A model generated the notes under the pieces. It was not told the origin of the DNA and ran no database searches. It worked only from the letters and a program-made list of their open reading frames with translations. From positions 1 to 37,796 of the forward strand of contig JAPLED010000051.1 in the NCBI GenBank assembly GCA_026391475.1: a DNA stretch of 37,796 nt. Direction: 5' to 3'. A program made the translations under genes and the position numbers. Below, piece by piece: positions 6,890 to 20,829 of the stretch. The stretch's first letter is position 1. Each line of letters starts with the position of its first letter. This DNA is from Bacteroidia bacterium. GTDB taxonomy: Bacteria; Bacteroidota; Bacteroidia; Bacteroidales; VadinHA17.

Positions 6890-8185
6890 TTATCTTTTAT
6901 TCTTTGAAATCAGGTATCGGAACGGATTAACTATCTTTTGAAGAAGACGGACATCCTCAGTAATGATTTCTGCAGTTCCCTGCATATTCTGATTAAACTC
7001 GAGCTTTCGATTGTATAAGGTGGTAAGACCAGATGGAAGCTCAATCTCAATAACATAGGTGTCGCCGGCGGGGACAAGTGATTTGGTTTTTATCTTTCCT
7101 TTCAACATTCCATATTCAAGATATGGATAGCTGCTAAGCTTAATATTTACATCCTGGCCGGGCTTAACTTTTCCGGATCTTTGCATCTTAAGATATATCC
7201 GGCCAATATATTTACCCGGGTTATCAGGAACTATCGCCAGTACAGGTTCATCTTTATTTACTGATTGATTCTCACTCCAGAATTTTGTAAAAGTTACAAT
7301 ACCTCCGATTGGTGAAATCAGAAGATAGTCATTCTCCCATATTTTAACCTGGGCTTTCAAATTTCCAAATGACTCATTCAGAGAGGAATAAAGTTTTTCC
7401 ATCTCTTCTGTTTTTTTGAGTGAATATTCCTTCAGAAGTTCTTCCTCATTTGTCTGATCGATTATTTTGGCTGATATTTCGTTCCGGATCGAATTAAAAT
7501 CAATCTTCTGTTTCAAAAAAGTCTGCTCGGATTTATCCAATTCACCTGCAGGAATAACAGTATCTGCCTTAAAAAGTGAAAGCGATCTTTGATGTCTGAT
7601 AGAATCGAGAACCAGATTCTCAGAGTAGAGTTTTTCACTCTGCCTCAAACCTTTAAGGTAAATGGCTATCTGAGACAGTTTTTCTCTCGAAGAGCTTATT
7701 TTATTTCCATATAGATCATTTTTAATAAAATTCTGATATTCCAGCAGTGCCTTTCTGAAGGTACCATAATATATCTGCACTTCACCAAGTTCAGCCATTT
7801 CAGATACAGATTCTATTGAAAGAGCATTAACCCTGGTCACAGTATCGGTAAATTTTCTGAGCTTTTCTATCTCATTAATTGTAGCAGCAGTCTGCATTAC
7901 TGCCAATACCTGACCTTTAGATACCTTTCCTTTATCGCTGATATTCAGGTGCTTAATTCTGCCTGTAATTTTCGATACAAGTGTTACAGGTGGATTTTCG
8001 GTAGTAATTTCAACCGGGGCAGGGATTGTATCGGGATACCTGATTAACCAGGCAAAAAGAATAAACAGAACAAATATTGAAAACATAACCGTAGTTCCCC
8101 ATCTGAGAATTTTTCTCGGAGGATTTCCCATAATCTCCTTTACAGGGTCAGAATATAATATTTCGGGTTTGCGATCTTTCATCAA
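6890..8185 (-). CDS. HlyD-type membrane-fusion (adaptor) protein of a peptide exporter
   Basis: The adaptor links an inner-membrane ABC exporter to the outer membrane in type I-like secretion. Of 431 residues, the N terminus is cytoplasmic, one membrane helix lies at about 30-48 (GTTVMFSIFVLFILFAWLI), and then come the first lipoyl half (about 70-95, SKITGRIKHLNISDKGKVSKGQVLAVM), a long alpha-helical coiled-coil hairpin (about 95-300), the second lipoyl half (SPIGGIVTFTKFW) and the beta-barrel region to residue ~405. It starts 6 bp after the C39 exporter gene on the same strand, an obvious two-gene operon. A second Met at residue 2 is an equally good start. The pairing with a peptidase-type exporter says its cargo is a leader peptide rather than a large toxin. 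Confidence 0.93.
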   Translation of the reverse strand: MMKDRKPEILYSDPVKEIMGNPPRKILRWGTTVMFSIFVLFILFAWLIRYPDTIPAPVEITTENPPVTLVSKITGRIKHLNISDKGKVSKGQVLAVMQTAATINEIEKLRKFTDTVTRVNALSIESVSEMAELGEVQIYYGTFRKALLEYQNFIKNDLYGNKISSSREKLSQIAIYLKGLRQSEKLYSENLVLDSIRHQRSLSLFKADTVIPAGELDKSEQTFLKQKIDFNSIRNEISAKIIDQTNEEELLKEYSLKKTEEMEKLYSSLNESFGNLKAQVKIWENDYLLISPIGGIVTFTKFWSENQSVNKDEPVLAIVPDNPGKYIGRIYLKMQRSGKVKPGQDVNIKLSSYPYLEYGMLKGKIKTKSLVPAGDTYVIEIELPSGLTTLYNRKLEFNQNMQGTAEIITEDVRLLQKIVNPFRYLISKNKR

Positions 8186-8191
8186 TCATTC

Positions 8192-10378
8192 CTAATTACC
8201 CAGTTCAAGTTGATTTTTTACAAGATTAAAATAGGCTCCCCGCTTCACAATTAGCGACTCATGAGTACCTGTCTCAATTATCCTGCCACCGTCAAGGACA
8301 ACAATTTTATCAGCGTCTTTTACAGTACTGAGCCTATGTGCAACAACTATAACAGTCTTACCCTCAAAGAATCCGGCAAGGTTTTCGACAATAGCTTTTT
8401 CATTGTTAGCATCAAGAGAATTGGTTGCTTCATCGAAGATTATAATATCGGGGTTCTTATAAATTACCCGGGCAATAAGAAGACGTTGTTTCTGCCCTTC
8501 GCTTAATCCGTGACCATTTGCTCCAATTTTGGTGTTATATCCGAGAGGAAGTGACTCGATAAAACCTTTTATGTTAGCAACTTCGACTGCATTAATCAAT
8601 TTTTCCTCATTGATCTCTTCAGATCCGGGAGCAATATTGGCAGCAATTGTATCGGGGAATAAAAAACCATCCTGCATAACAGCCCCCACTTTTTCCCTCC
8701 ATATTTTAAGGCTTAGATTCGACAAACGGGTATCTCCTATCAGAATCTCACCATTTACCGGTTGGTAAAATCCAAGTAGCATTTTAAGCAAAGTTGTCTT
8801 TCCGCTGCCGCTTGTCCCGACAATTGCAGTTATTTTATTCTCTTCTATGAAAAGGTCTGCATCTTTTATGGCAAACGGGGAGCGCGGACCTTCATATTGA
8901 TAGGAAAGGTTATTTATATATATATCTTTTTTATCAGGAAGCTTACGTACTTTCATTTCCGGATTTGGTTCCTCATCATCCATTTGATGAACTTCAGCCA
9001 GCCGGTCAAGACTCATTCTTGCATCCTGCGAAATGCGGAAGAATCCAATGATCTGGCTGACAGGCACATTCAGCTGACCTATTATAAACTGAACGGCAAG
9101 CATCATACCGAGGGTCATAGTACCTTTAAGAACTGCTGTAGCGGCAACTACTGTAATGAAAACATTGGTTACTTCATTAATAAATGTAGCTCCGGCTGAC
9201 TGGTATTGAATAATACTCAAACCTTTCACCTTTAATCCGAACAGGGAAGCCTGAAGCTTTTCCCAATCCCATCGCATGCTTAATTCACTTTGGGTCAACT
9301 TGATTTCCTGCATACCATTAACTATGTTTATCAGTTTGGTACCTGATGCAGACATCTGCTTAAAACGCTGATGATCGAGGTGGGCCCTTGATTTCATGAA
9401 CAGGGATACCCATATAATATATAAAGCTGAACCGGCAAGAAACAAAAAAAGGATCTTAATACTGAATATTGCGAGTACTATGCCAAATACAACCAGGTTG
9501 AAAAAAGAGAATAAGATATTCAGGCAGGCTGAAGTAAGAAATTCTTCAATTCTGTTGTTATCTTCAATCCGCTGAAGAATATCGCCGGTAAGCTTGGTAT
9601 CAAAAAAAGCAATTGGCAATGACATCAACTTTTGAAGGAATCCTGATATTACAGCTACATTCACCCTGGATCCGATATGAAGAAGCAGCCAACCTCTTAT
9701 AAATTCAACCGACATTCTGCCAAAAAGAAGTGCAAGTTGGGCAAAAAGGATCAGGTAAATAAAGCCTATATCATTATTATTAAGACCAATATCTATAATT
9801 GATTGAGTAAGAAACGGTATAACAAGTTGTATGCAACTTCCAAGAAGTAACCCAAGAACAAGCTGGAAAAAATATTTACGATAAAGACGGAAATATTTAA
9901 AAAGGAATCTGAACCCATTTGCCTTTTCATGCTCATTTTCGTTCTCAAAGAGTGATGGTGTTGGTTCAATTATTAAAACAAGTCCTGCCGGTTTTCCATC
10001 AGCAATTGTAGACGCCCAGCATTTAACAAATTCCTCGCGGGTGTACTTGACGAGGCCTGCTGCCGGATCGGCAACCCAGATTTTGTCATTCTTGATTTTG
10101 TATACGACGATGAAATGTTTTTGTCGCCAGTGCACAATGCATGGTAACGGGACATTTTCATTCAACATTTCAAAAGGAATTTTCACACCTATTGTCCTGA
10201 ACCCAAGAGAATCAGCAGCTTCAGAAAGCCCAAGAAATGAGACACCTTCCCTGGTTATGTAACACTTTTTTCTAAGTGATTCAAGTGAAAAACTCATTTT
10301 GTAAAACCCTGCTACCATCTTAAGACAAGCAGGTCCGCAATCCATTGCATCGGGTTGTTTTACAAAAGGGAAAGACAT
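8192..10378 (-). CDS. C39 peptidase-containing ABC exporter (bacteriocin/double-glycine peptide maturation and export)
   Basis: It cuts double-glycine leader peptides and exports the core using ATP. The 728 residues carry three domains. The N-terminal C39 cysteine peptidase (1-130) has Cys14 in DCGPACLKM, His88 in QKHFIVVYK and Asp104 in WVADPAAG, a complete catalytic set. A six-helix transmembrane domain spans about 165-450. The nucleotide-binding domain has Walker A GTSGSGKTT (521-529), the signature LSEGQ (625-629), Walker B IIIFDEAT (645 onward) and the H-loop His681 in VAHRLS. All key residues are intact. Its operon partner is the HlyD-type adaptor. It is transcribed divergently from the sigma factor across 155 bp. 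The likely cargo is the double-glycine peptide encoded at 14430-14567. Confidence 0.96.
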   Translation of the reverse strand: MSFPFVKQPDAMDCGPACLKMVAGFYKMSFSLESLRKKCYITREGVSFLGLSEAADSLGFRTIGVKIPFEMLNENVPLPCIVHWRQKHFIVVYKIKNDKIWVADPAAGLVKYTREEFVKCWASTIADGKPAGLVLIIEPTPSLFENENEHEKANGFRFLFKYFRLYRKYFFQLVLGLLLGSCIQLVIPFLTQSIIDIGLNNNDIGFIYLILFAQLALLFGRMSVEFIRGWLLLHIGSRVNVAVISGFLQKLMSLPIAFFDTKLTGDILQRIEDNNRIEEFLTSACLNILFSFFNLVVFGIVLAIFSIKILFLFLAGSALYIIWVSLFMKSRAHLDHQRFKQMSASGTKLINIVNGMQEIKLTQSELSMRWDWEKLQASLFGLKVKGLSIIQYQSAGATFINEVTNVFITVVAATAVLKGTMTLGMMLAVQFIIGQLNVPVSQIIGFFRISQDARMSLDRLAEVHQMDDEEPNPEMKVRKLPDKKDIYINNLSYQYEGPRSPFAIKDADLFIEENKITAIVGTSGSGKTTLLKMLLGFYQPVNGEILIGDTRLSNLSLKIWREKVGAVMQDGFLFPDTIAANIAPGSEEINEEKLINAVEVANIKGFIESLPLGYNTKIGANGHGLSEGQKQRLLIARVIYKNPDIIIFDEATNSLDANNEKAIVENLAGFFEGKTVIVVAHRLSTVKDADKIVVLDGGRIIETGTHESLIVKRGAYFNLVKNQLELGN

Positions 10379-10501: not shown

Positions 10502-10509
10502 TATATTTG
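10502..10509 (+). promoter_or_regulatory. Candidate -7 promoter element TATATTTG for the sigma factor gene
   Basis: It matches TAnnTTTG exactly. It overlaps the upstream TTG codon (10507) that would otherwise be taken as the start of the sigma gene, which argues that translation begins further downstream. No good -33 TTTG is seen at the usual 19-21 base distance; the closest TTTG (10484-10487) is 14 bases away. Confidence 0.45.
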
Positions 10510-10533
10510 CCACTTGATTCTTCTAACCACAAG

Positions 10534-11103
10534 GTGTTGTTTAAAAAAATTTCAGATATAAACATAATTGAGGGTGTGCACAAACAGGACAGTAAGGTCC
10601 TGAATTGGCTTTATGACAATTATTTACAATCGGTCAGGAGTTATGTACTCAAGAATAGCGGGTCAGAAGAAGATGTCTCCGATGTTTTTCAGGATTCGAT
10701 AATTGTACTCTACACGCAGATATCAGAAAACAATTTAAACCTCACAACTGACCTAAAAGGTTATTTTTTTGGTATTGCACGGAACGTGTGGAACGCACAT
10801 CTGAGAAAAAAGCATAGAACTACTGAATTAAAAATTGACCTTGCCGATGAAGAGGATATGGAAGAGATAAATGACTTGATTCTTGAAAAGATTGTAAGCA
10901 GGGCTTTTCAAAAACTCAGACCAGATCAGCAAATGGTGCTGAATTTATTTTCCGAAGGTCATTCGTATGAAGAGATTGCAGTAAAAATGAATCTTAAGAA
11001 TGAGAAATATGCCAGGAGAAAAAAATATATGTGCAAAGAAGTCCTTCTGGAGTTTGTTAAAGAAGATCCCGAATATCAGGAATATTTGCGTTTTCTGAAA
11101 TAA
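10534..11103 (+). CDS. ECF-type RNA polymerase sigma factor
   Basis: It directs RNA polymerase to a small set of promoters. There are about 189 residues from a GTG at 10534. Region 2 covers LNWLYDNYLQSVRSYVLKNS to DVSDVFQDSIIVLYTQ, with the KGYFFGIARNVWNAHLRKK segment that recognises the -10. Region 4 is QMVLNLFSEGHSYEEIAVKM and the following basic helix (NEKYARRKKYMCKE). No ATG exists upstream: a stop lies at 10480 and the frame offers only TTG 10507, GTG 10534 and TTG 10537. TTG 10507 sits within a promoter-like element, so I prefer GTG 10534. The 3' end overlaps the CHAT gene, on the other strand, by 28 bp. Context suggests it drives the peptide/CHAT module. Confidence 0.88.
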   Translation: MLFKKISDINIIEGVHKQDSKVLNWLYDNYLQSVRSYVLKNSGSEEDVSDVFQDSIIVLYTQISENNLNLTTDLKGYFFGIARNVWNAHLRKKHRTTELKIDLADEEDMEEINDLILEKIVSRAFQKLRPDQQMVLNLFSEGHSYEEIAVKMNLKNEKYARRKKYMCKEVLLEFVKEDPEYQEYLRFLK

Positions 11104-14100
11104 AGTATCAGGGAGACAAATACAATAAAAGCAAATATAACGGCAGCAATAATCAAGTGTTTTGAATAATACAATGGAGTATTATTCCCGTAAATAACCA
11201 GAGTTGACCAGAAATATGGATGTGATCTTAACTGGTCAGACTTCTTTAAATAGGCGATTCTTGCTTTTCGCAAAGCCACACTTTTCGAATTACCCTTTTT
11301 AAGATTTTTATAGAACATTTTTACGATCTCTGTCCCTGATCTGTCTTCAATCTCCCACATTGACATCACAACCGATTGACTACCTGAGTAAATAAATCCT
11401 CTGGCAAGGCTTAAAATACCTTCACCGGAGTATAAAAAACCAGTCCCCGTGTTGCATGAGCTCAGTACAACCATTTTTGCTTTCAAAGGAATACCATAAA
11501 CTTCATATGTTTTGAGATACCGGTCATCAATTGTGTCAACCTCAGGACTGAATATCAATGTTGAATTCATTGGGTCTTTATCATTCAGAATAGTATGCAT
11601 AGCCAAATGAATAATATCGTATTTACCAGATTCTGCTTTATAAACTGATTCTCTGGCTTCATCATTCAGAAAAAGTTTACCACCTGTAATATCTGATACA
11701 TATTCTGCCTCCTGCCTGGCATAAGGAAGATCGGGCAGTATACTCGTTTCAGCTTGTCTGTTCATTAGTACTGATTGGATATCAATGGGTTCAGGATAAT
11801 TTGGAGCAAACACAATTACTTTATTACCAATACTATATTCTTTTCTTACAGATTCTGCCATAAATGTTGCAGAATAAGTATAAGAAATGTCAAAATCGTT
11901 CATCAGGTAAGCAAGTTCCCGGTATAAAATTCTTTCTCCTGAGTCTGGAGCAGTAGGGATTGCCTCAAATGGAAGATATGAAAGAATATTATCCGGTGAA
12001 ATTATTAACTGATCAGAAATCAGGTAAGGTACAACAGGATGTATAAGGGTTTTATATAATTCATATCCGATTGACTGATATTTTCTGAATGCTATTTTGG
12101 CATTATCGGAAGGTGAAGGTATTGATAACAAATTTCTGAATTGCCTGATATTACCATAGAATGATGAATCGACAGGAATAGCCAATAACTGCTGATGTTT
12201 CCGGTTAGCAACTAAAATATAAAGTATGGTGTCTGATATAACATAATTGATATAATTTACATTGCGGCCGATTATTTCAGGAATATCCTTTAGTTTAGCT
12301 ACTTGCGTGTTGTACTTTATTGCGTAATAACCGGGATATTGATTTTCAAAAACTAATATCAGGGAATCCCGTATGCTTGTAGTCTCCAGAAGATTCTCCC
12401 TCCATTTATTTATTAATATAGTGTCAGGTTCCTCACGAATTATTTCTTCAGCAATACGTGCATTAAAGAGACTGATATCCCTCTGCAGTTTTTTTTCAGA
12501 ATCTGCAATATCTGAAGGAATATGAAATTGGACTGCTTTTAATTCCCGCGTTGAAGTGAGCAATCCTGCAACTTTGCTTTTTTCCGAATATTCAAACGCT
12601 TTTTCGAGAAAATGGTGGTCAGCAGTTTTACTGTAAAGAAGATTGAAATCCCGTATTGCGTTAAGATAGGAATCTCGATACCGGTCACCCAAAACCAGCC
12701 TGCTTTCTTCTTCACTGATATTTATCCTGACCTTTTCGAGCAGGGAAACTATTAATTCAGCTGTACCGGATGCAGCTTCAAGAGTTTTCTGATCTTGTGA
12801 TTTTTTAAATATCTTCCATAAAATTTCATACTTGGCTTTTAGAATATTTAAAGATTTTCTGTCGGGTTTGATAGTTTCAATACTGGGATTATCATAAATT
12901 CCAGTTCCCTCGTTTTCTCTATAGTCTGAAAATAGCAGCGACTGGATTATTCCAAGCGCTTTACTTAGCTCACCAGCTTCAGCCAGTGACAGAGAGTACC
13001 CGATATGAACAGCGGTTTTTAAAAACAGATCCTGATTATTCTTCCTCAGATAATCCATGCATATGATATAGCATTCAATTGATTTTTTATTATCAATTTT
13101 ATATTCCCTTAAATAATCAGCATAATAATTAAGTACTTCAAAATAGCTGCGGGGATTCTCTCCATATTTTATTTTTGACCTATCGAGAGCATCAATCAAT
13201 AAAGACTCCCCTTTTTGTACCTCACCGGCATTACCAAGGATAATAGCATAACTATTTACAATGTTATACGCAATGGAAGAATTGATGGAAACGGCCTTCG
13301 CAATACCTTGTTCATAGTACTCCTCAGATTTCCCGGTAAGACCCAGGGCACCATAGGCTATTGCCATACTATTCATCAGGTTGATATAGCTTTCGTTAAG
13401 GACAAGATGATTATTCTTATAAAATGATTCGGATTTATCAAGGTAGATTTTTGCTTTTGAAAAATTTGCCAGTCTGCTATAACATACACCTAAATTATTG
13501 TATAGACCAGCCAAAATTACCGGAGATACCAAGTCAGTATTATTATTGGCAATCGCCAATGCAATATTTGAAAAATTTATTGCTTTTTCATATTCCTGTA
13601 ATTCGATATAAGCAGTGATAAGACTTGAGTATGTACCTATTAAATCCGGACTTGATTCACCATAAATCTTAATATCCATTTCGAGAGATTTCAATGAATA
13701 ATCTTCATGTTTACTGAAATCTCCAATACCGTTGAATGCGAAACCAAGATTATAAAGAGCTTTTGAAAATGTTTCATCGTACTCCTTATTTCTTTCTTTT
13801 AATTCAACTGAAAGATTTAAATATTTAATTGATTCATAGTAATTTTTTGCAATTGAGTAATAGATTCCGATAAGATAATATGATTCAGATAAGGTTTTAT
13901 CATCAATTCTATCGTCCCCGATTTTTTGAATAATTCTGCCGACAATTGTTCTGCTCCCGGAATAATCACGACTTAGAAGTAATCTTTTAAGTGATACATT
14001 AAGCTCGTTTACTTCATTTGATGGAATGTTAATGGCTGTCGGGATGGAATTTACAACCGGGGAATCACCGGAGAACAACTTAAATGGAATATATGTGCAA

Positions 14101-14180
14101 TGGACTTCAGTTGTGTGAAAACAGCCAACAGAAATGAATATTCCAATCAAAAACCTTGAAAGTTGACCTCTCCAAATCAT
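11076..14180 (-). CDS. TPR-CHAT caspase-like protein with signal peptide and C-terminal membrane anchor
   Basis: CHAT domains are caspase-like cysteine peptidases usually joined to tetratricopeptide repeats. From the ATG at 14180 (1034 residues) the order is: signal peptide (MIWRGQLSRFLIGIFISVGC), TPR array (about 60-420, e.g. YYLIGIYYSIAKNYYESIKY, GLYNNLGVCYSRLANFSKAK), a helical linker, the CHAT domain (about 680-1000), a membrane helix (about 1008-1028, HLIIAAVIFAFIVFVSLILYF) and a basic RKRKYS tail. The catalytic dyad is intact: His862 in IIHLAMHT and Cys909 in VVLSSCNTGTG, followed by GEGILSLARGF. Topology therefore puts TPR and CHAT outside the cytoplasm. A TATCTTTG element (14227-14234) just upstream would start transcription after the longer in-frame ATG (14225), favouring 14180. 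It lies between sigma factor and peptide. Confidence 0.93.
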   Translation of the reverse strand: MIWRGQLSRFLIGIFISVGCFHTTEVHCTYIPFKLFSGDSPVVNSIPTAINIPSNEVNELNVSLKRLLLSRDYSGSRTIVGRIIQKIGDDRIDDKTLSESYYLIGIYYSIAKNYYESIKYLNLSVELKERNKEYDETFSKALYNLGFAFNGIGDFSKHEDYSLKSLEMDIKIYGESSPDLIGTYSSLITAYIELQEYEKAINFSNIALAIANNNTDLVSPVILAGLYNNLGVCYSRLANFSKAKIYLDKSESFYKNNHLVLNESYINLMNSMAIAYGALGLTGKSEEYYEQGIAKAVSINSSIAYNIVNSYAIILGNAGEVQKGESLLIDALDRSKIKYGENPRSYFEVLNYYADYLREYKIDNKKSIECYIICMDYLRKNNQDLFLKTAVHIGYSLSLAEAGELSKALGIIQSLLFSDYRENEGTGIYDNPSIETIKPDRKSLNILKAKYEILWKIFKKSQDQKTLEAASGTAELIVSLLEKVRINISEEESRLVLGDRYRDSYLNAIRDFNLLYSKTADHHFLEKAFEYSEKSKVAGLLTSTRELKAVQFHIPSDIADSEKKLQRDISLFNARIAEEIIREEPDTILINKWRENLLETTSIRDSLILVFENQYPGYYAIKYNTQVAKLKDIPEIIGRNVNYINYVISDTILYILVANRKHQQLLAIPVDSSFYGNIRQFRNLLSIPSPSDNAKIAFRKYQSIGYELYKTLIHPVVPYLISDQLIISPDNILSYLPFEAIPTAPDSGERILYRELAYLMNDFDISYTYSATFMAESVRKEYSIGNKVIVFAPNYPEPIDIQSVLMNRQAETSILPDLPYARQEAEYVSDITGGKLFLNDEARESVYKAESGKYDIIHLAMHTILNDKDPMNSTLIFSPEVDTIDDRYLKTYEVYGIPLKAKMVVLSSCNTGTGFLYSGEGILSLARGFIYSGSQSVVMSMWEIEDRSGTEIVKMFYKNLKKGNSKSVALRKARIAYLKKSDQLRSHPYFWSTLVIYGNNTPLYYSKHLIIAAVIFAFIVFVSLILYFRKRKYS

Positions 14181-14328: not shown

Positions 14329-14429
14329 TTTTTCCGTGTCACAAAATGCCACTAACCGACATGTAGCAGTATAATAGATTACTGAATTACGAATTACCCT
14401 GGATTAGTATCAATAAAAAAAAGAAAATT

Positions 14430-14567
14430 ATGAAAACCCTGAATTTCGAATTGACAAAAGACATTTTTAATGAGTTTGCACTTTCAAATGAAGAGATGAT
14501 TTATGTCCGTGGCGGAGAAGAAACTGACCCGGTATCATTACCAACACCTCCTACAATTAGAATCTGA
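14430..14567 (+). CDS. Double-glycine leader peptide precursor (45 residues), candidate secreted peptide
   Basis: The frame ATG 14430 to TGA 14567 encodes a leader (1-29) and a 16-residue core. The leader MKTLNFELTKDIFNEFALSN-EEMIYVRGG fits the classical C39 substrate pattern at every position: Leu-12 (L18), Ser-11 (S19), Glu-8 (E22), Met-7 (M23), Val-4 (V26) and Gly-2/Gly-1 (28-29). The predicted core is EETDPVSLPTPPTIRI: acidic start, four prolines, no cysteine, hydrophobic/basic end. Lack of Cys and of a modification enzyme nearby argues against a lanthipeptide or sactipeptide. A C39 exporter/adaptor pair 4 kb away completes the pathway. A strong hairpin follows 9 bp after the stop. Whether the product is a bacteriocin, a signal or a ligand for CHAT is unknown. 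Confidence 0.75.
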   Translation: MKTLNFELTKDIFNEFALSNEEMIYVRGGEETDPVSLPTPPTIRI

Positions 14568-14575
14568 AAAAAAAT

Positions 14576-14603
14576 GTTTCCTGTTTTAGCGAAAACAGGA
14601 AAC
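14576..14603 (+). terminator. Strong hairpin after the peptide gene (terminator or mRNA stabiliser)
   Basis: GTTTCCTGTTTT and AAAACAGGAAAC pair perfectly over 12 bp around an AGCG tetraloop, starting 9 bases after the stop. No U-tract follows (CCACAGGC), so full termination is uncertain; a partial terminator or a 3' stabiliser that raises peptide mRNA over the downstream genes fits equally. Confidence 0.6.
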
Positions 14604-14776: not shown

Positions 14777-15523
14777 ATGAAAACAATTGATTTTTCATAT
14801 TTCATCGAAAGGTACAATGCCGGTAAGATGAGTGATTCTGAAAGACAGTGGTTCCTTAAGGAGCTTGATGGTAACGAAAAACTCCAGAATGAGGTTGATC
14901 TCAGGAAACGTACCGATGAGGTTCTTAAGAACCAAAACATAATTTCTTTAAGAAGTAAACTCTCCGATATTGAAAAGAAAAGAGAGGCTTCAATACCTGT
15001 CAGAAACTCAAAGAAACCGGTTTCGCTGAAATATGCTGCCGTTATTTCAGTACTGGTTATTATTGGAAGCATCACAATGTTTTCGGGGAGAAATCTAAGT
15101 AGTGATGAAATTATGAACCGCTACTATAAAGTATACGAGCCTCCGACAGGTCAAAGATCAGTTCAGTCCGGAACAAATGCTGATTTCACTCTGGCTCTGA
15201 AGTTTTATAATACCCACGACTATGAGAAAGCTGCAATTCTTTTCAACAAAGTGGTTGAAAGTAACCCGAAAGACATGCAGTCCACTTTATTAAATGGTAT
15301 TGTCAATTTCGAAAACAATAAATATCCGGAAGCTAAGCGATCATTTGGGAATGTAATTAACGACAATAACAACCTTTATATTGATCAGGCTCAATGGTAT
15401 CTGGCATTATGTTATGTGAAAACTGATGAAAGAGAAAAGGCTATTCAACAGTTGGAAATAATTAAAAAAGAGGGCGGTATCTACAGGAATGATGCAAAAA
15501 AGATTATAAGAAAGTTGAAATAA
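14777..15523 (+). CDS. Membrane TPR protein resembling an anti-sigma factor
   Basis: Of 248 residues, a cytoplasmic domain (1-80) has the look of an anti-sigma N terminus: FIERYNAGKMSDSERQWFLK, then ELDGNEKLQNEVDLRKRTDE. A single membrane helix spans about 84-103 (LKYAAVISVLVIIGSITMFS), and the outer part carries about three TPR-like units (133-230: LALKFYNTHDYEKAAILFNK, LLNGIVNFENNKYPEAKRSF, WYLALCYVKTDEREKAIQQL). The zinc-binding HxxxCxxC motif of ZAS anti-sigma factors is absent, so the assignment rests on architecture and on the ECF-type sigma factor in the same block. The TPR outside the membrane could receive the exported peptide or contact CHAT. It precedes the kinase gene by 21 bp, probably in one operon. 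Confidence 0.65.
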   Translation: MKTIDFSYFIERYNAGKMSDSERQWFLKELDGNEKLQNEVDLRKRTDEVLKNQNIISLRSKLSDIEKKREASIPVRNSKKPVSLKYAAVISVLVIIGSITMFSGRNLSSDEIMNRYYKVYEPPTGQRSVQSGTNADFTLALKFYNTHDYEKAAILFNKVVESNPKDMQSTLLNGIVNFENNKYPEAKRSFGNVINDNNNLYIDQAQWYLALCYVKTDEREKAIQQLEIIKKEGGIYRNDAKKIIRKLK

Positions 15524-15544: not shown

Positions 15545-16381
15545 ATGTTTGAACTTACGGTAAATGATGCTAACGAAGGGAAAAATTCACAATTGAATAT
15601 CAGTGATAAGGGGACAGCTATGAATTCATTGAATAATATAATGATAAACTGTCCGACAATTTTAAGAGGTATGTCTCATGAGATGAGAACACACATGAAT
15701 GCAATTGTGGCGTTTTCATATCTGATGAAAAAAAATTGTTGTAACAATTCAGAACGAGAGGAATTCAGTAATCAGATTTTAAACTCATCTGAACAACTAA
15801 TAGGGCTATTCGATAGTTTTTTTGATTCGGCAATAATTGATACGGGTAATTCAAAAACTGATTCAAAAATCTGTAAACTCGATAATTTGCTTGATGGCCT
15901 TCTTTCTGAATTCAGGGAAGAAATAAGGAAAGAGGGTCACAAAGATGTAGAACTGGTAACTGAGATCCAGTTTTATAATTCAGCTGAGGTTTTTGTTGAT
16001 AAAAACAAGATTTTCAGGGTAATTCGCAGTCTGTTTCAGAATTCAATAAAAAACACAAAATCAGGGTATATTAAGATTGGTTACTATTTCAGGGATAACA
16101 AGGTAACCTTTTATGTTCTCGATTCCGGCCAGGGTTATTTCAAATGCAAAGAATTTCTTCATTCTGAAGATATAAATGAATCGCTTACACTATATAATGA
16201 TACGTATACAGCGATTAATATCACCCTGGCCAAGAAGCTTATTCAAATGTTGGGGGGAACTATCTGGATTGAATGTAATGGTCTTACAGGAGCAGGAATC
16301 TATTTTTCTGTACCGTCTAAGATGATAGCAAGCTCCGGTGTTAATATCAAAAAATATGTAAATACAATGATCGCTATCTGA
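15545..16381 (+). CDS. Soluble histidine kinase, no sensor domain
   Basis: It has 278 residues, with no signal peptide, no membrane helix and no receiver domain. The first ~35 residues are unstructured in appearance. The HisKA segment (about 38-100) carries the phosphoacceptor His45 in MSHEMRTHMNAIVAFSYLM; the family's usual proline in the RTPLN position is His here. The ATPase domain (about 120-265) has an N-box-like QNSIKNTKSG, a G1 box LDSGQGY and a G2-like GLTGAGIYFSVPS. These boxes are recognisable but divergent. No response regulator is adjacent. It shares an operon with the anti-sigma-like TPR protein and is closed by a terminator, so it likely acts within this module. Confidence 0.85.
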   Translation: MFELTVNDANEGKNSQLNISDKGTAMNSLNNIMINCPTILRGMSHEMRTHMNAIVAFSYLMKKNCCNNSEREEFSNQILNSSEQLIGLFDSFFDSAIIDTGNSKTDSKICKLDNLLDGLLSEFREEIRKEGHKDVELVTEIQFYNSAEVFVDKNKIFRVIRSLFQNSIKNTKSGYIKIGYYFRDNKVTFYVLDSGQGYFKCKEFLHSEDINESLTLYNDTYTAINITLAKKLIQMLGGTIWIECNGLTGAGIYFSVPSKMIASSGVNIKKYVNTMIAI

Positions 16382-18410: not shown

Positions 18411-19040
18411 CTATGGTATGTGCATATATTTATGCACCTGAAGGGAGATTCTCCAGATGGAGTTTCTCTTTATGTATTCAACAATTTCAGGAATAATTGT
18501 TTCGAATCGGCTCCATTCAGGTTGGAGGAATAATCTGCATTTACTGTTGACCATCCCACGATATTTTTCTGCCCACTCAAAATCTGTTTTATCCTGAATT
18601 ATTACTTTCAGCTCGTCTGCAACTATACAAATTTCATTAACCGGTGGCATCTTTTTTTTCGGTGACAGGCATATCCAGTCCCACTCTCCGCTTAAAGGAT
18701 ATGCTCCTGATGTTTCAATATAAGTGCTAATATTCTTTTCCTTCAAACCTGAACATAAATAATCGAGGTTCCACATAAGCGGTTCACCACCAGTAACAAC
18801 TACAGAATCTGTGCCGGATTTTGTTATGCGATCGATAATTGATTCAGTTTCTACCATTGGGTGGAGGTCAGGGTTCCATGAAAAACGTGAATCACACCAG
18901 TTGCATCCGACATCGCATCCCCCTAATCTTATAAAATATGCTGCTTTCCCGGTATGATAACCTTCGCCCTGTAATGAAAAAAATTCTTCCACTAACGGGA
19001 GCTTGACTCCATCTGGTATTAAATTTGAATTTTTTTCCAT
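18411..19040 (-). CDS. queE: 7-carboxy-7-deazaguanine synthase (radical SAM)
   Basis: QueE converts 6-carboxytetrahydropterin to 7-carboxy-7-deazaguanine in the preQ0/queuosine pathway. The protein is 209 residues from the ATG at 19040. Motifs are FFSLQGEGYHTGKAAYFIRL, then GGCDVGCNWCDSRFSW with the CxxxCxxC cluster ligands Cys42, Cys46 and Cys49, VVTGGEPL (GGE motif), and a C-terminal SLQVHKYMHIP ending usual for the Bacteroidota family. A longer frame back to 19094 would overlap the upstream nucleotidase gene by 35 bp and adds nothing conserved, so 19040 is preferred. The partner genes queC and queD are not in this window. Confidence 0.95.
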   Translation of the reverse strand: MEKNSNLIPDGVKLPLVEEFFSLQGEGYHTGKAAYFIRLGGCDVGCNWCDSRFSWNPDLHPMVETESIIDRITKSGTDSVVVTGGEPLMWNLDYLCSGLKEKNISTYIETSGAYPLSGEWDWICLSPKKKMPPVNEICIVADELKVIIQDKTDFEWAEKYRGMVNSKCRLFLQPEWSRFETIIPEIVEYIKRNSIWRISLQVHKYMHIP

Positions 19041-19059
19041 TACACTGAAATTACAAAAT

Positions 19060-20829
19060 CTATTTTCCAGTTCCAAACAGCAGTGCATATTCACGGGGTA
19101 CAGATGTCTTTACCCACTTTTCCGGAATGATTTTCCAGTTGTTTAATGGTTCCGGATTAACCGTTTTTTTTGCTTCAATTGATTTTAAAATATAATATCT
19201 CAGATCCCTGTCGGTTGAAGATACAATTCTCGATCTTAGTTCCTCCTTTTTAATTCCTGCACCTTCTGTAAAATGTCCGCCTCCTCCGTTTCCACGGTAT
19301 GAGTTAACGGCCACTTTATACATTTTATTTCTTTCAAAAGGCCTGCCATCAGTAAAACCACTAATAATAATTCTTGCTCCCTCAGGTTTGCTAACGTCTA
19401 CCGTATAGTCAATTCCGGCAGCTGAATCAAAATTGTAGGGCTGGTTTTTCAGCCATGCTTTTCCATCTGTAATAAGAGGTTTCCCATCTTTTCCGGCACG
19501 TAATTTAAGCAGTGCATAACCCGGGCCATTCATCGTATTAAACCATTCAGAATATGAATATTCAAGATACTTCTGAATCTCTTCTCCTGACATAGTCATA
19601 GTATAAAGCATATTTTCAAACCTGTATAATTTGAACATATCTCCCACAGTTATCGGGCCTTCAGAAATCTGAACATCAAAGGACAATGGCGCTGCAAATG
19701 AAATGTCGGCTCCTGTTATTTCAAGTTGTATTGAATGAATCATGTCGATAAAAGCAGATGGACCAAAATATGCATCACGTGATGAGATGGTTGCAGATGA
19801 ATTACCAATTACCCGATTCACGTATCCATCAATTATTTTATGTTGCGGAGTGAATCTGGTAATGAATTCAGGGTTGGGTTTAAAATCAGCAACATTAATT
19901 ATCTGACCGGTTATTTTCCTCTTTTTTTTTCCTTTAATCTTCCTGGAACTGAAGGTTATATCAGCCTGGGCTATCTTTTCCGACTTGCTTCCACCGTCTA
20001 GTATCAGTATGGTATCTCCAGCTGTATTTACAAATTTTTCATTAGCCAGTCTATGATCATGACCATTAAAAATTATGTCGAAGCCGGGAACATTGTAAGC
20101 AACTGCTGCAGAACCATTCTCGTTTAAAGGATCACTCTTCTGAGATTCTTCCCTCGACCTGTCCCAACCGGAATGAAAGAGTCCCACAACCAGGTCGGGC
20201 TTTTCATTTAAAATAACCGGCATCCAAAGTTTAGCCGTTTCAACCATATCCCTGAATTCAATTCCTGCATATAGTTCCTGAGGCAGCCAATTTGGGATAG
20301 CCGGAGTAACAAGGCCAAATACAGCAATTTTAATTCCCTCTTTTACAATAATATAGTAAGGTTTAAAATATGGTTTTCCTGTTTTGATATTGATTGCATT
20401 TGCAGCAAGTAACGGAAAGTTATACTTTTTAACTAACCTGTCGTAAACAGCATGTCCTGCCTCCACATCATGGTTTCCCACAGTGCCGGCATCATAACCC
20501 ATGTAATTCATGACTTCAGATAAAAAATGTGGCGACACTGTATCGATAAAATTGTAATAGTACACTTCCGGCTGACCCTGCAGGTTGTCTCCATTATCAA
20601 GAAGTATGGTAGCATCCTTTTCTTCTCTGATCTGCCTGATATAGGTGAAAGAAGATGCAAGAGAAGCATTTAATTTTTCTTTTTCGATGTAATCATAGGG
20701 AAGGATAACTCCATGAACATCTGTTGTTTCGAGAATACTGATACTCTTTTTACCGGTTCCCGAACAGGAAACCAGGAGCATTATTAACAGTAATTTTATA
20801 GTCAGATGACTAAGTGATCTTATATGCAT
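19060..20829 (-). CDS. 5'-nucleotidase / 2',3'-cyclic phosphodiesterase-type metallophosphoesterase, lipoprotein
   Basis: Enzymes of this family dephosphorylate extracytoplasmic nucleotides. About 589 residues from the ATG at 20829 give a lipoprotein signal (LLLIMLLVSCSGTG, lipobox LVSC). The metallophosphatase core shows TTDVHG, DNGDNLQG, VGNHDVEAG, GLFHSGWDRS and FNGHDHRL, all five metal/phosphate motifs. The C-terminal nucleotide-specificity domain follows (about 350-560), including NSYRGNGGGGHFTEG. The longer frame to 20856 would begin inside the promoter-like element, so the downstream ATG is chosen. It lies upstream of queE with 19 bp between them. The nucleotide actually used cannot be told from sequence alone. 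Confidence 0.93.
   Translation of the reverse strand: MHIRSLSHLTIKLLLIMLLVSCSGTGKKSISILETTDVHGVILPYDYIEKEKLNASLASSFTYIRQIREEKDATILLDNGDNLQGQPEVYYYNFIDTVSPHFLSEVMNYMGYDAGTVGNHDVEAGHAVYDRLVKKYNFPLLAANAINIKTGKPYFKPYYIIVKEGIKIAVFGLVTPAIPNWLPQELYAGIEFRDMVETAKLWMPVILNEKPDLVVGLFHSGWDRSREESQKSDPLNENGSAAVAYNVPGFDIIFNGHDHRLANEKFVNTAGDTILILDGGSKSEKIAQADITFSSRKIKGKKKRKITGQIINVADFKPNPEFITRFTPQHKIIDGYVNRVIGNSSATISSRDAYFGPSAFIDMIHSIQLEITGADISFAAPLSFDVQISEGPITVGDMFKLYRFENMLYTMTMSGEEIQKYLEYSYSEWFNTMNGPGYALLKLRAGKDGKPLITDGKAWLKNQPYNFDSAAGIDYTVDVSKPEGARIIISGFTDGRPFERNKMYKVAVNSYRGNGGGGHFTEGAGIKKEELRSRIVSSTDRDLRYYILKSIEAKKTVNPEPLNNWKIIPEKWVKTSVPREYALLFGTGK

Follow-up and report, generated by a model that had tools for sequence, protein, structure and literature searches.

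A GG-leader peptide precursor in a conserved TPR-CHAT and ECF sigma factor cassette of Bacteroidota: a candidate peptide signal

What is the role of a reading frame of 45 codons that lies beside the gene for a TPR-CHAT protease, in one locus with a peptide exporter and an ECF sigma factor? We addressed this question in a window of 37,796 nucleotides (the whole stretch of DNA that was analysed; contig JAPLED010000051.1 of assembly GCA_026391475.1) from a Bacteroidia bacterium of the Bacteroidales, in which the genes follow the order HlyD adaptor, C39-ABC exporter (PCAT), ECF sigma factor, TPR-CHAT protease (opposite strand), precursor, TPR membrane protein and histidine kinase. Their coordinates are collected in Table 1.

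Table 1. Features of the cassette, with positions in the window and the evidence for each
Feature	Position	Strand	Evidence or remark
HlyD-type adaptor	6890..8185	-	HlyD_3 3e-9; TIGR01843 6e-23, below cut-off
PCAT (C39 peptidase and ABC exporter)	8192..10378	-	Peptidase_C39 2e-37, ABC_membrane, ABC_tran
ECF sigma factor	10507..11103	+	Sigma70_r2 1.7e-7, r4_2 7.4e-6; TIGR02937 9e-16
TPR-CHAT protease	11076..14180	-	CHAT 6e-54, TPR_12 1e-16
ECF-type promoter element, TGTCACAAA-N12-GACATGTA	14337..14365	+	ends 64 nt before the ATG
5'-UTR stretch, ATTACCCTGGATTAGTATCAAT (ACCCTGAATTAGTATCAA-like)	14393..14414	+	similar by eye in many homologues, uncounted
GG-leader peptide precursor, 45 aa	14430..14567	+	homologues, alignment, dN/dS, core comparison
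Precursor: leader	14430..14516	+	
Precursor: core	14517..14564	+	
Precursor: stop	14565..14567	+	
Hairpin after the precursor stop	14576..14603	+	z -2.5 in the window
Candidate anti-sigma factor (TPR membrane protein)	14777..15523	+	N-terminal helical region, one helix, C-terminal TPR
Histidine kinase, accessory	15545..16381	+	HisKA, HATPase_c

The precursor and its cassette

The sequence-only reading of this DNA had proposed an unannotated precursor with a GG leader and a short, proline-rich, Cys-free and non-cationic core, which agrees with the sequence and with the homologues described below. Direct reading confirmed the 45-residue frame, and the details given for it were also right: L-12, S-11, E-8, M-7, V-4, G-2 and G-1 of the leader all stand where they had been placed, and the core has 16 residues with four prolines and no Cys. 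Translated from its ATG, the precursor consists of a leader of 29 residues, MKTLNFELTKDIFNEFALSNEEMIYVRGG, with VRGG at its C-terminus, followed by the core EETDPVSLPTPPTIRI. The GG at positions -2/-1 and the hydrophobic residues at -12, -7 and -4 correspond to the pattern of C39 substrates, which suggests that the leader would be cleaved after the GG. The window precursor had no match in Pfam or NCBIfam (E <= 10) or in PADLOC.

Relatives were searched in 60 genomes (G001 to G059 and the genome of the window itself). Clear homologues (E <= 3.4e-4) were found in 28 of the 35 other genomes of the genus, and inspection of the loci added one more (L101 in G030), which brings the carriers to 30 of 36 genus genomes, the own genome counted. 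The predicted layout of ATG, leader, GG and proline-rich core beside CHAT was seen in these relatives. Outside the genus but in the same order, one of 24 genomes (G057) gave a homologue, with a stop codon within the match. In three loci of G057 (L058, L061 and L062) there are small ORFs that end in a poly-proline stretch plus DPDPNHGG; CHAT lies nearby only at L058 and L062, and L058 has no ATG start that fits a full leader.

To describe the conservation of the precursor we aligned 31 chosen sequences: that of the window, those of 29 further main-locus copies, and L063 as a single copy from a second module. Residues L18, M23, G28, G29 and P41 are invariant in all of them, and both V26 and R27, the latter just before the GG, are kept in at least 90% of the 31 rows. 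Every core ends with a final I/L and PP within its last seven residues (31/31), and Cys is absent from all 31. With lengths of 14-21 residues and a median net charge of -1 (range -3 to +1, positive in 3/31), these cores differ from class II bacteriocins, which are longer and cationic, as had been remarked for the window core. Furthermore, the pooled dN/dS, calculated over only those pairs with pS < 0.62 (287 of 465), was 0.43 for the leader and 0.40 for the core. The sequence-only reading had staked its case on homologous frames in related loci and on purifying selection of the frame, and both were found, the first in 30 of 36 genus genomes and the second with a pooled dN/dS of about 0.4. Within the closest pairs, change in the core keeps pace with that at silent sites or exceeds it (L041/L045, pS 0.11 and pN 0.20; L034/L035, pS 0.18 and pN 0.18; L042/L049, pS 0.13 and pN 0.14), which indicates that short-term change of the core is not strongly constrained, though its end motif is. 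As judged from these alignments, the frame is real and under selection, and its core diversifies around a retained end motif. A chance ORF is ruled out by the homologues, the conservation of the frame and the synteny.

All 29 precursor loci examined in the genus have the TPR membrane protein beside the precursor, and 28 of them have CHAT, the exception being L047, which starts at a contig edge. The C39 exporter shares the locus with the precursor and is conserved wherever contigs reach, and HlyD adjoins PCAT in all 21 loci with a whole PCAT. Outside the cassette lie ordinary genes, with DUF349, CTP synthase and YidC on one side, and on the other an OmpA-family protein, a radical SAM protein, a 5'-nucleotidase and NamZ. 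The precursor and its place in the cassette are well supported, and genes of 30-50 codons, under the usual length cut-offs, can be constant members of a conserved cassette.

The histidine kinase has no partner regulator that we saw nearby in the window and is kept in most, not all, loci, with no match in L055, L060 or L076; similar kinases lie near the distant modules L086, L088-L094 and L099. The sigma gene is broken into two frames in L036 (13448-14000) and L125 (13103-13628), which, being of equal length, appear to be the same contig; the cause is either a sequencing error or a real lesion.

Across the genus, the TPR membrane protein was found in 32 of 36 genomes (E < 1e-45). In G007 (L185) the block is absent: the OmpA-like gene comes after DUF349 without any cassette gene in between. 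No TPR membrane protein was found at E <= 1e-8 in G009, G031 and G033; the cassette side of the locus lies beyond the contig end in G009 and G031, no OmpA-like anchor was found in G033, and completeness is only 77-78% for G031 and G033. In G029 contig ends cut inside CHAT and inside the TPR protein. The locus of G026 (L076) lacks both precursor and kinase but retains the exporter, the sigma factor, CHAT, the TPR protein and the promoter motif, and the homologue search gave no clear precursor elsewhere in that genome either. In this locus (L076, 9970-10848) the motif lies about 100 nt ahead of the TPR protein gene.

Promoter element and loci beyond the genus

An ECF-type promoter element precedes the precursor. 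Its pattern, with any gap of 11-15, has one exact site in the 2.8-Mb own genome, and a slightly looser pattern was found, with N12 spacing throughout, at the window precursor and at 25 of the 29 same-genus precursor loci. L055 has one further match to this looser pattern, at another place and with a spacing of 11. Four precursor loci are without the N12 form: L032 and L033 carry what by eye are variant elements, in L047 the contig end interrupts the locus, and in L059 the first half alone is present. Across the 60 genomes there are 31 exact sites with N12 spacing, all of them in the 36 genomes of the genus, versus none with N13. By our own reading of the listing, 26 of the 31 are at the precursor locus (24 ahead of a precursor, one ahead of the TPR gene of G026 and one next to CHAT at a contig edge in G018) and five are elsewhere. 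Specificity becomes poor when one mismatch is allowed, with 46 sites versus 21 for a backward control in the 60 genomes; in the own genome there is a second, one-mismatch site without a clear target. The sigma gene and the ECF-type motif occur together in one locus, and the sigma factor of the locus would be the one that reads the motif. As for other targets of such a regulon, no consistent downstream gene was found at the sites in L069-L073, L075, L081 and L082. In L077 (~9983-10009, exact) and L079 (~8745-8771, one mismatch), which belong to two genomes of the genus, the motif stands before a second, divergent HlyD/PCAT pair.

The hairpin that follows the precursor stop is possibly a partial terminator. 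A general role as attenuator was discarded as weak, with a mean z of -1.24 over 31 loci and values below -1.64 in only 8 of them.

A profile of the precursor run against 395 genomes of the phylum gave a match in four, the own genome included, and the other three were weak (E 0.004-0.01); this profile left out L058, L061, L062 and the peptides of L085-L104, and distant relatives had to be located via CHAT and the TPR protein. We therefore scanned a collection of species genomes with the CHAT alignment and kept the best 80 of 565 loci, which include Marinifilum flexuosum DSM 21950, Labilibaculum, Sunxiuqinia (S. elliptica), Ancylomarina, Mangrovibacterium and Gaoshiqia. Among these best 80 of 565, with contig ends ignored, CHAT is present in 80, the TPR membrane protein in 57, the sigma factor in 67, and both of the latter within 7 kb in 54.

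GG ORFs were counted in the 64 of these best 80 (of 565) loci that had at least 1000 nt upstream of CHAT, the other 16 being excluded; the 64 include same-genus loci, some from genomes also in the set of relatives. Of these 64 loci, 52 have a strict C39-type GG ORF no further than 1.5 kb from the start of CHAT. The same filter was passed by 9 of 479 control stretches taken from these loci and by 17 of 1280 shuffles. In this selection from the best 80 of 565, 12 of the 64 had no strict GG ORF, and rescoring one of them (L168) with the first of its two tandem CHAT genes raised the count to 53. Again among the best 80 of 565, 64 of 65 GG ORFs are divergent from CHAT, and they occur in 30 of the 31 loci that have the window's flanking genes and in 23 of the 33 others; L129-L138, except L134 (a close fragment), share these flanking genes. 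The two tandem CHAT genes of L168 have equal length. Divergent second modules, of the same and of other families, also carry GG ORFs (for example L063, L090-L093, L096-L099 and L104), and by our own reading L085-L104 have a small GG ORF in 11 of 20 loci, with at least five others cut by contig ends.

The promoter-like element also recurs at a distance. Among the 23 distant GG-ORF loci in the best 80 of 565, a -35-like element could be scored in 18, and the sequence [GT]GT[TCA]AC was found 40-130 nt before the first copy in 14 of these 18, with 128 hits in 1800 shuffles as control; it was not found in the other 4 of the 18 (best 80 of 565). By eye, many of these distant elements read GGGTTACC. 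The distant cores are often not proline-rich, as in GG-YQDKCINEDILV. In addition, several species have tandem GG ORFs: four copies in Marinifilum flexuosum, five in Marinifilum D714, four in Labilibaculum K2S and two in Ancylomarina. The copies share one core within a genome and differ between species, with one copy in Labilibaculum K2S differing in the residue after the GG, and in the two Marinifilum arrays the promoter-like element was found at the first copy only, among the copies examined. Such tandem arrays, with 2-5 GG ORFs each, lie upstream of CHAT in L156, L161, L153 and L168; within each genome the cores are identical or almost identical, and between species they differ. Similar cassettes are present well outside the genus. 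This wider occurrence, the membership in a sigma/anti-sigma/CHAT cassette with its own ECF-type promoter motif, and the distant cores that are poor in proline had not been noticed in the sequence-only reading.

Proposed circuit and alternative explanations

For CHAT we assumed the ATG start, whereas ORF prediction starts at TTG 14225. The protein has a signal-like hydrophobic stretch at its N-terminus and a C-terminal hydrophobic helix followed by basic residues. H862 and C909 are invariant in all 32 CHAT proteins aligned, divergent ones included (32 chosen rows, some of which probably start inside the gene). Its AlphaFold2 model (mean pLDDT 83.7) has Csx29 as top structural match (7y9x_B; Z 26.3, 436 residues, rmsd 4.2) and also matches separase (5fc2_B; Z 24.8); this common fold does not show a common function. 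The model was also matched to the transmembrane anti-sigma factor DdvA (8rw5; Z 21.1, model residues 170-998), and its TPR part to the peptide sensors RapI (Z 19.7) and NprR (Z 19.0), though many unrelated TPR proteins score as high as these two.

The model of the TPR membrane protein (pLDDT 79.6) has helices at 7-71, a helix at 82-103, which we take as the predicted membrane span, and TPR at 135-247. We assign it a candidate anti-sigma role because of this domain layout and the gene order. No anti-sigma domain model matched it in Pfam and NCBIfam scans, and its model gave TPR-type matches in the PDB, with no anti-sigma protein among the matches listed. Sequence searches of the PDB with this protein and with CHAT had TPR proteins among the matches listed, and the search with the window sigma returned known ECF sigma factors. 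This sigma factor matches the type III-E sigma model NF041236 with E 1e-5, well under the cut-off and behind many other ECF models. Defence models were also considered: at E <= 1e-5 there was no PADLOC match for CHAT, the TPR protein, the sigma factor, the precursor or the kinase, and PCAT matched four PADLOC models, all within its ATPase part, so that a defence system was rejected.

Taken together, we find it just about probable that the ORF encodes the precursor of a small peptide signal that is secreted, and that this signal both governs and is produced by its own sigma-factor circuit. In such a circuit, PCAT, whose gene is present in the conserved cassette, would cut the leader after its GG and export the core with HlyD. 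The TPR domain of CHAT, which is predicted to be anchored in the membrane, would then sense the core outside the inner membrane, perhaps together with the TPR domain of the anti-sigma factor. Once activated, CHAT, with its intact His/Cys pair, may cleave the predicted outer part of the TPR anti-sigma factor. The ECF sigma factor would thereby be set free and would transcribe, from the motif that stands at the precursor, both the precursor gene and the downstream anti-sigma gene, which would give an autoinduction loop with built-in feedback. The locus combines a Csx29-like trio of protein kinds with a peptide that has an export leader, and for this reason we propose the core as the trigger of CHAT. 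A point against this reading is G026, where, with no clear precursor, the circuit would run without its own peptide of this kind or listen to those of others; L076 is possibly a listener or a decayed locus.

Sequence change gives modest support to the core as trigger of CHAT, in a correlation that is exploratory. When neighbour genes are controlled for, core distances track CHAT-TPR distances in each of four control sets (partial r 0.38-0.41, p 0.001). These sets have 18 to 34 loci, the smallest being limited to loci in which all control genes are present; the partial r in an initial run on 15 loci was 0.49. The test is not clean, as the OmpA-like, sigma and PCAT controls also reach p 0.001-0.010 in some settings, and the correlation of the TPR membrane protein (anti-sigma) with the core varied from 0.06 to 0.39 depending on the control set.

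A further point against a secreted signal is that the exporter should send the peptide outside the cell, whereas the proposed sensors face the periplasm, so that the peptide would have to re-enter. This same predicted layout would suit a cell-autonomous reporter or inhibitor, a peptide confined to the periplasm that holds CHAT on or off and monitors the cell's own exporter or envelope, and so would the position of the precursor beside CHAT and the retention of the circuit without precursor in G026. We nevertheless consider this explanation unlikely, since the constant pairing of HlyD with PCAT (21/21) suggests export across both membranes and the species-specific tandem cores resemble a released signal.

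An antimicrobial function is improbable to a similar degree. The peptide could be a narrow-range microcin or class II-like product whose synthesis the ECF circuit induces, with CHAT and the TPR protein sensing envelope damage, as trigger or immunity. A GG leader with PCAT/HlyD is the classic export route of bacteriocins, and the versions of Marinifilum, Labilibaculum and Sunxiuqinia score above the cut-off of the bacteriocin leader model TIGR01847 (19.2, 18.7 and 17.3 versus 15.7 bits), which covers the leader only. The motif would place the peptide first in line as output and the core changes fast between close relatives, both as expected for such a product; the short genus cores (14-21 residues), in contrast, are Cys-free and acidic to neutral (positive charge in 3/31), and tandem copies of the same core would yield dose and not spectrum. 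Moreover, a general inspection, as distinct from a dedicated search, recognised no immunity-like gene among the conserved cassette genes, and the cassette TPR protein, in 32 of 36 genus genomes, is less patchy than an antimicrobial locus would lead one to expect.

It is very unlikely that the precursor starts a modified natural product (RiPP), its core being matured by an enzyme encoded nearby or elsewhere. A radical SAM protein (PF04055, 8e-9) does lie at 18411-19094, two genes beyond the kinase and in a place that is kept in relatives, and three distant versions of the peptide match the model of rSAM-modified RiPPs, TIGR04149, below its cut-off (E 6e-4, 3e-3 and 0.01). This radical SAM protein persists in G007 (L185) despite the missing cassette. 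In the set with the distant second modules it was found only at the main-locus copies L101 and L102, and it looks like QueE, which we presume it to be; the window precursor itself has no NCBIfam or Pfam match at E <= 10, TIGR04149 included. A shade less probable still is that the leader is no C39 substrate and CHAT itself cuts the small protein, as a cytoplasmic or periplasmic regulator, for while R27 ahead of the GG is kept in at least 90% of the 31 rows and the ORF pairs with CHAT also where no PCAT matched (e.g. L090 and L104), the C39-type hydrophobic leader spacing recurs in distant loci (where this spacing was the search filter), PCAT belongs to the main cassette and the N-terminus of CHAT is signal-like.

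Extended beyond the genus, the secreted-signal reading becomes a tentative one, which we place somewhat short of probable: a pheromone system widespread in Bacteroidota, in which a GG-exported peptide would lead a periplasmic, separase-like TPR-CHAT to cut a membrane anti-sigma factor and free an ECF sigma factor. If this is true, Bacteroidota would have a peptide-signalling route of their own, a form of quorum sensing by peptide in which the receptor is caspase-like; the tandem cores that are specific to species would then be pherotypes, and loci without a precursor, as in G026, would be listeners.

Comparison with known systems

Each step of the proposed circuit has a precedent, and we found none for the combination: no GG peptide tied to CHAT, an anti-sigma factor and an ECF sigma factor was found in a literature coverage that lies mostly outside subscription papers. 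In the portions of text available, neighbourhoods of caspase domains with ECF sigma and TPR genes are described in a different context (PMC8195603), and a survey of Bacteroidales RiPPs has no occurrence of 'sigma' and has 'chat' solely within author names (PMC10352776). Bacteroidetocins, according to the part of their description available, are also Bacteroidota peptides with a GG leader and an ABC exporter that has a GG peptidase domain; they are Cys-bearing antimicrobials with a thiol oxidoreductase gene within larger genetic elements, unlike the Cys-free cores of the window's family (PMC6671954).

The pairs released by proteolysis, RseA-RpoE and DdvA, resemble the cassette in joining an ECF sigma factor to a one-helix membrane protein (here predicted), to which the cassette adds a separate TPR-CHAT protease and a GG peptide. 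Gram-positive GG-leader pheromones of the ComC/BlpC type have a short core after a GG leader, a C39 exporter and autoinduction. The cassette has the same kind of core, leader and exporter, autoinduction would be expected here too, and the Sunxiuqinia version scores marginally above the cut-off of the Pfam ComC model (20.6 versus 20.4 bits, in the leader region). Its receiver, in contrast, would be the CHAT/anti-sigma/ECF set in a Gram-negative host and not a histidine kinase with a response regulator, the nearby kinase being without a regulator. The TPR domain of CHAT, as modelled, is a likely peptide receptor, as in the RRNPP sensors (Rap, NprR); these sensors act in the cytoplasm and are not known to be proteases.

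The remaining parallel is with the CASP/Craspase system of type III-E CRISPR. No Cas family matched among the 17 window proteins scanned with Pfam, and between 6000 and 21000 there is no CRISPR array, as sought by direct repeats of at least 20 bases within 120 bases. In the available part of its description, Csx29 is a TPR-CHAT protease that cuts Csx30, the inhibitor of a sigma factor, and sites for this sigma factor lie in its own locus (PMC10028731). The window combines, in one locus, a TPR-CHAT protein of the same fold (Z 26.3) with its His-Cys pair, a candidate inhibitor, a sigma factor of ECF type and putative sites for that factor; sites within the own locus are also described for the CRISPR system (PMC10028731). 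Unlike in that system, the window CHAT and the candidate inhibitor are predicted membrane proteins, and the gene of a peptide that would be secreted takes the place of the RNA trigger. If the proposed circuit is true, it would be a membrane counterpart of the type III-E protease/anti-sigma/sigma relay, would provide a natural trigger for TPR-CHAT proteases outside CRISPR, and would hint at the origin of the Csx29/Csx30/sigma relay itself.
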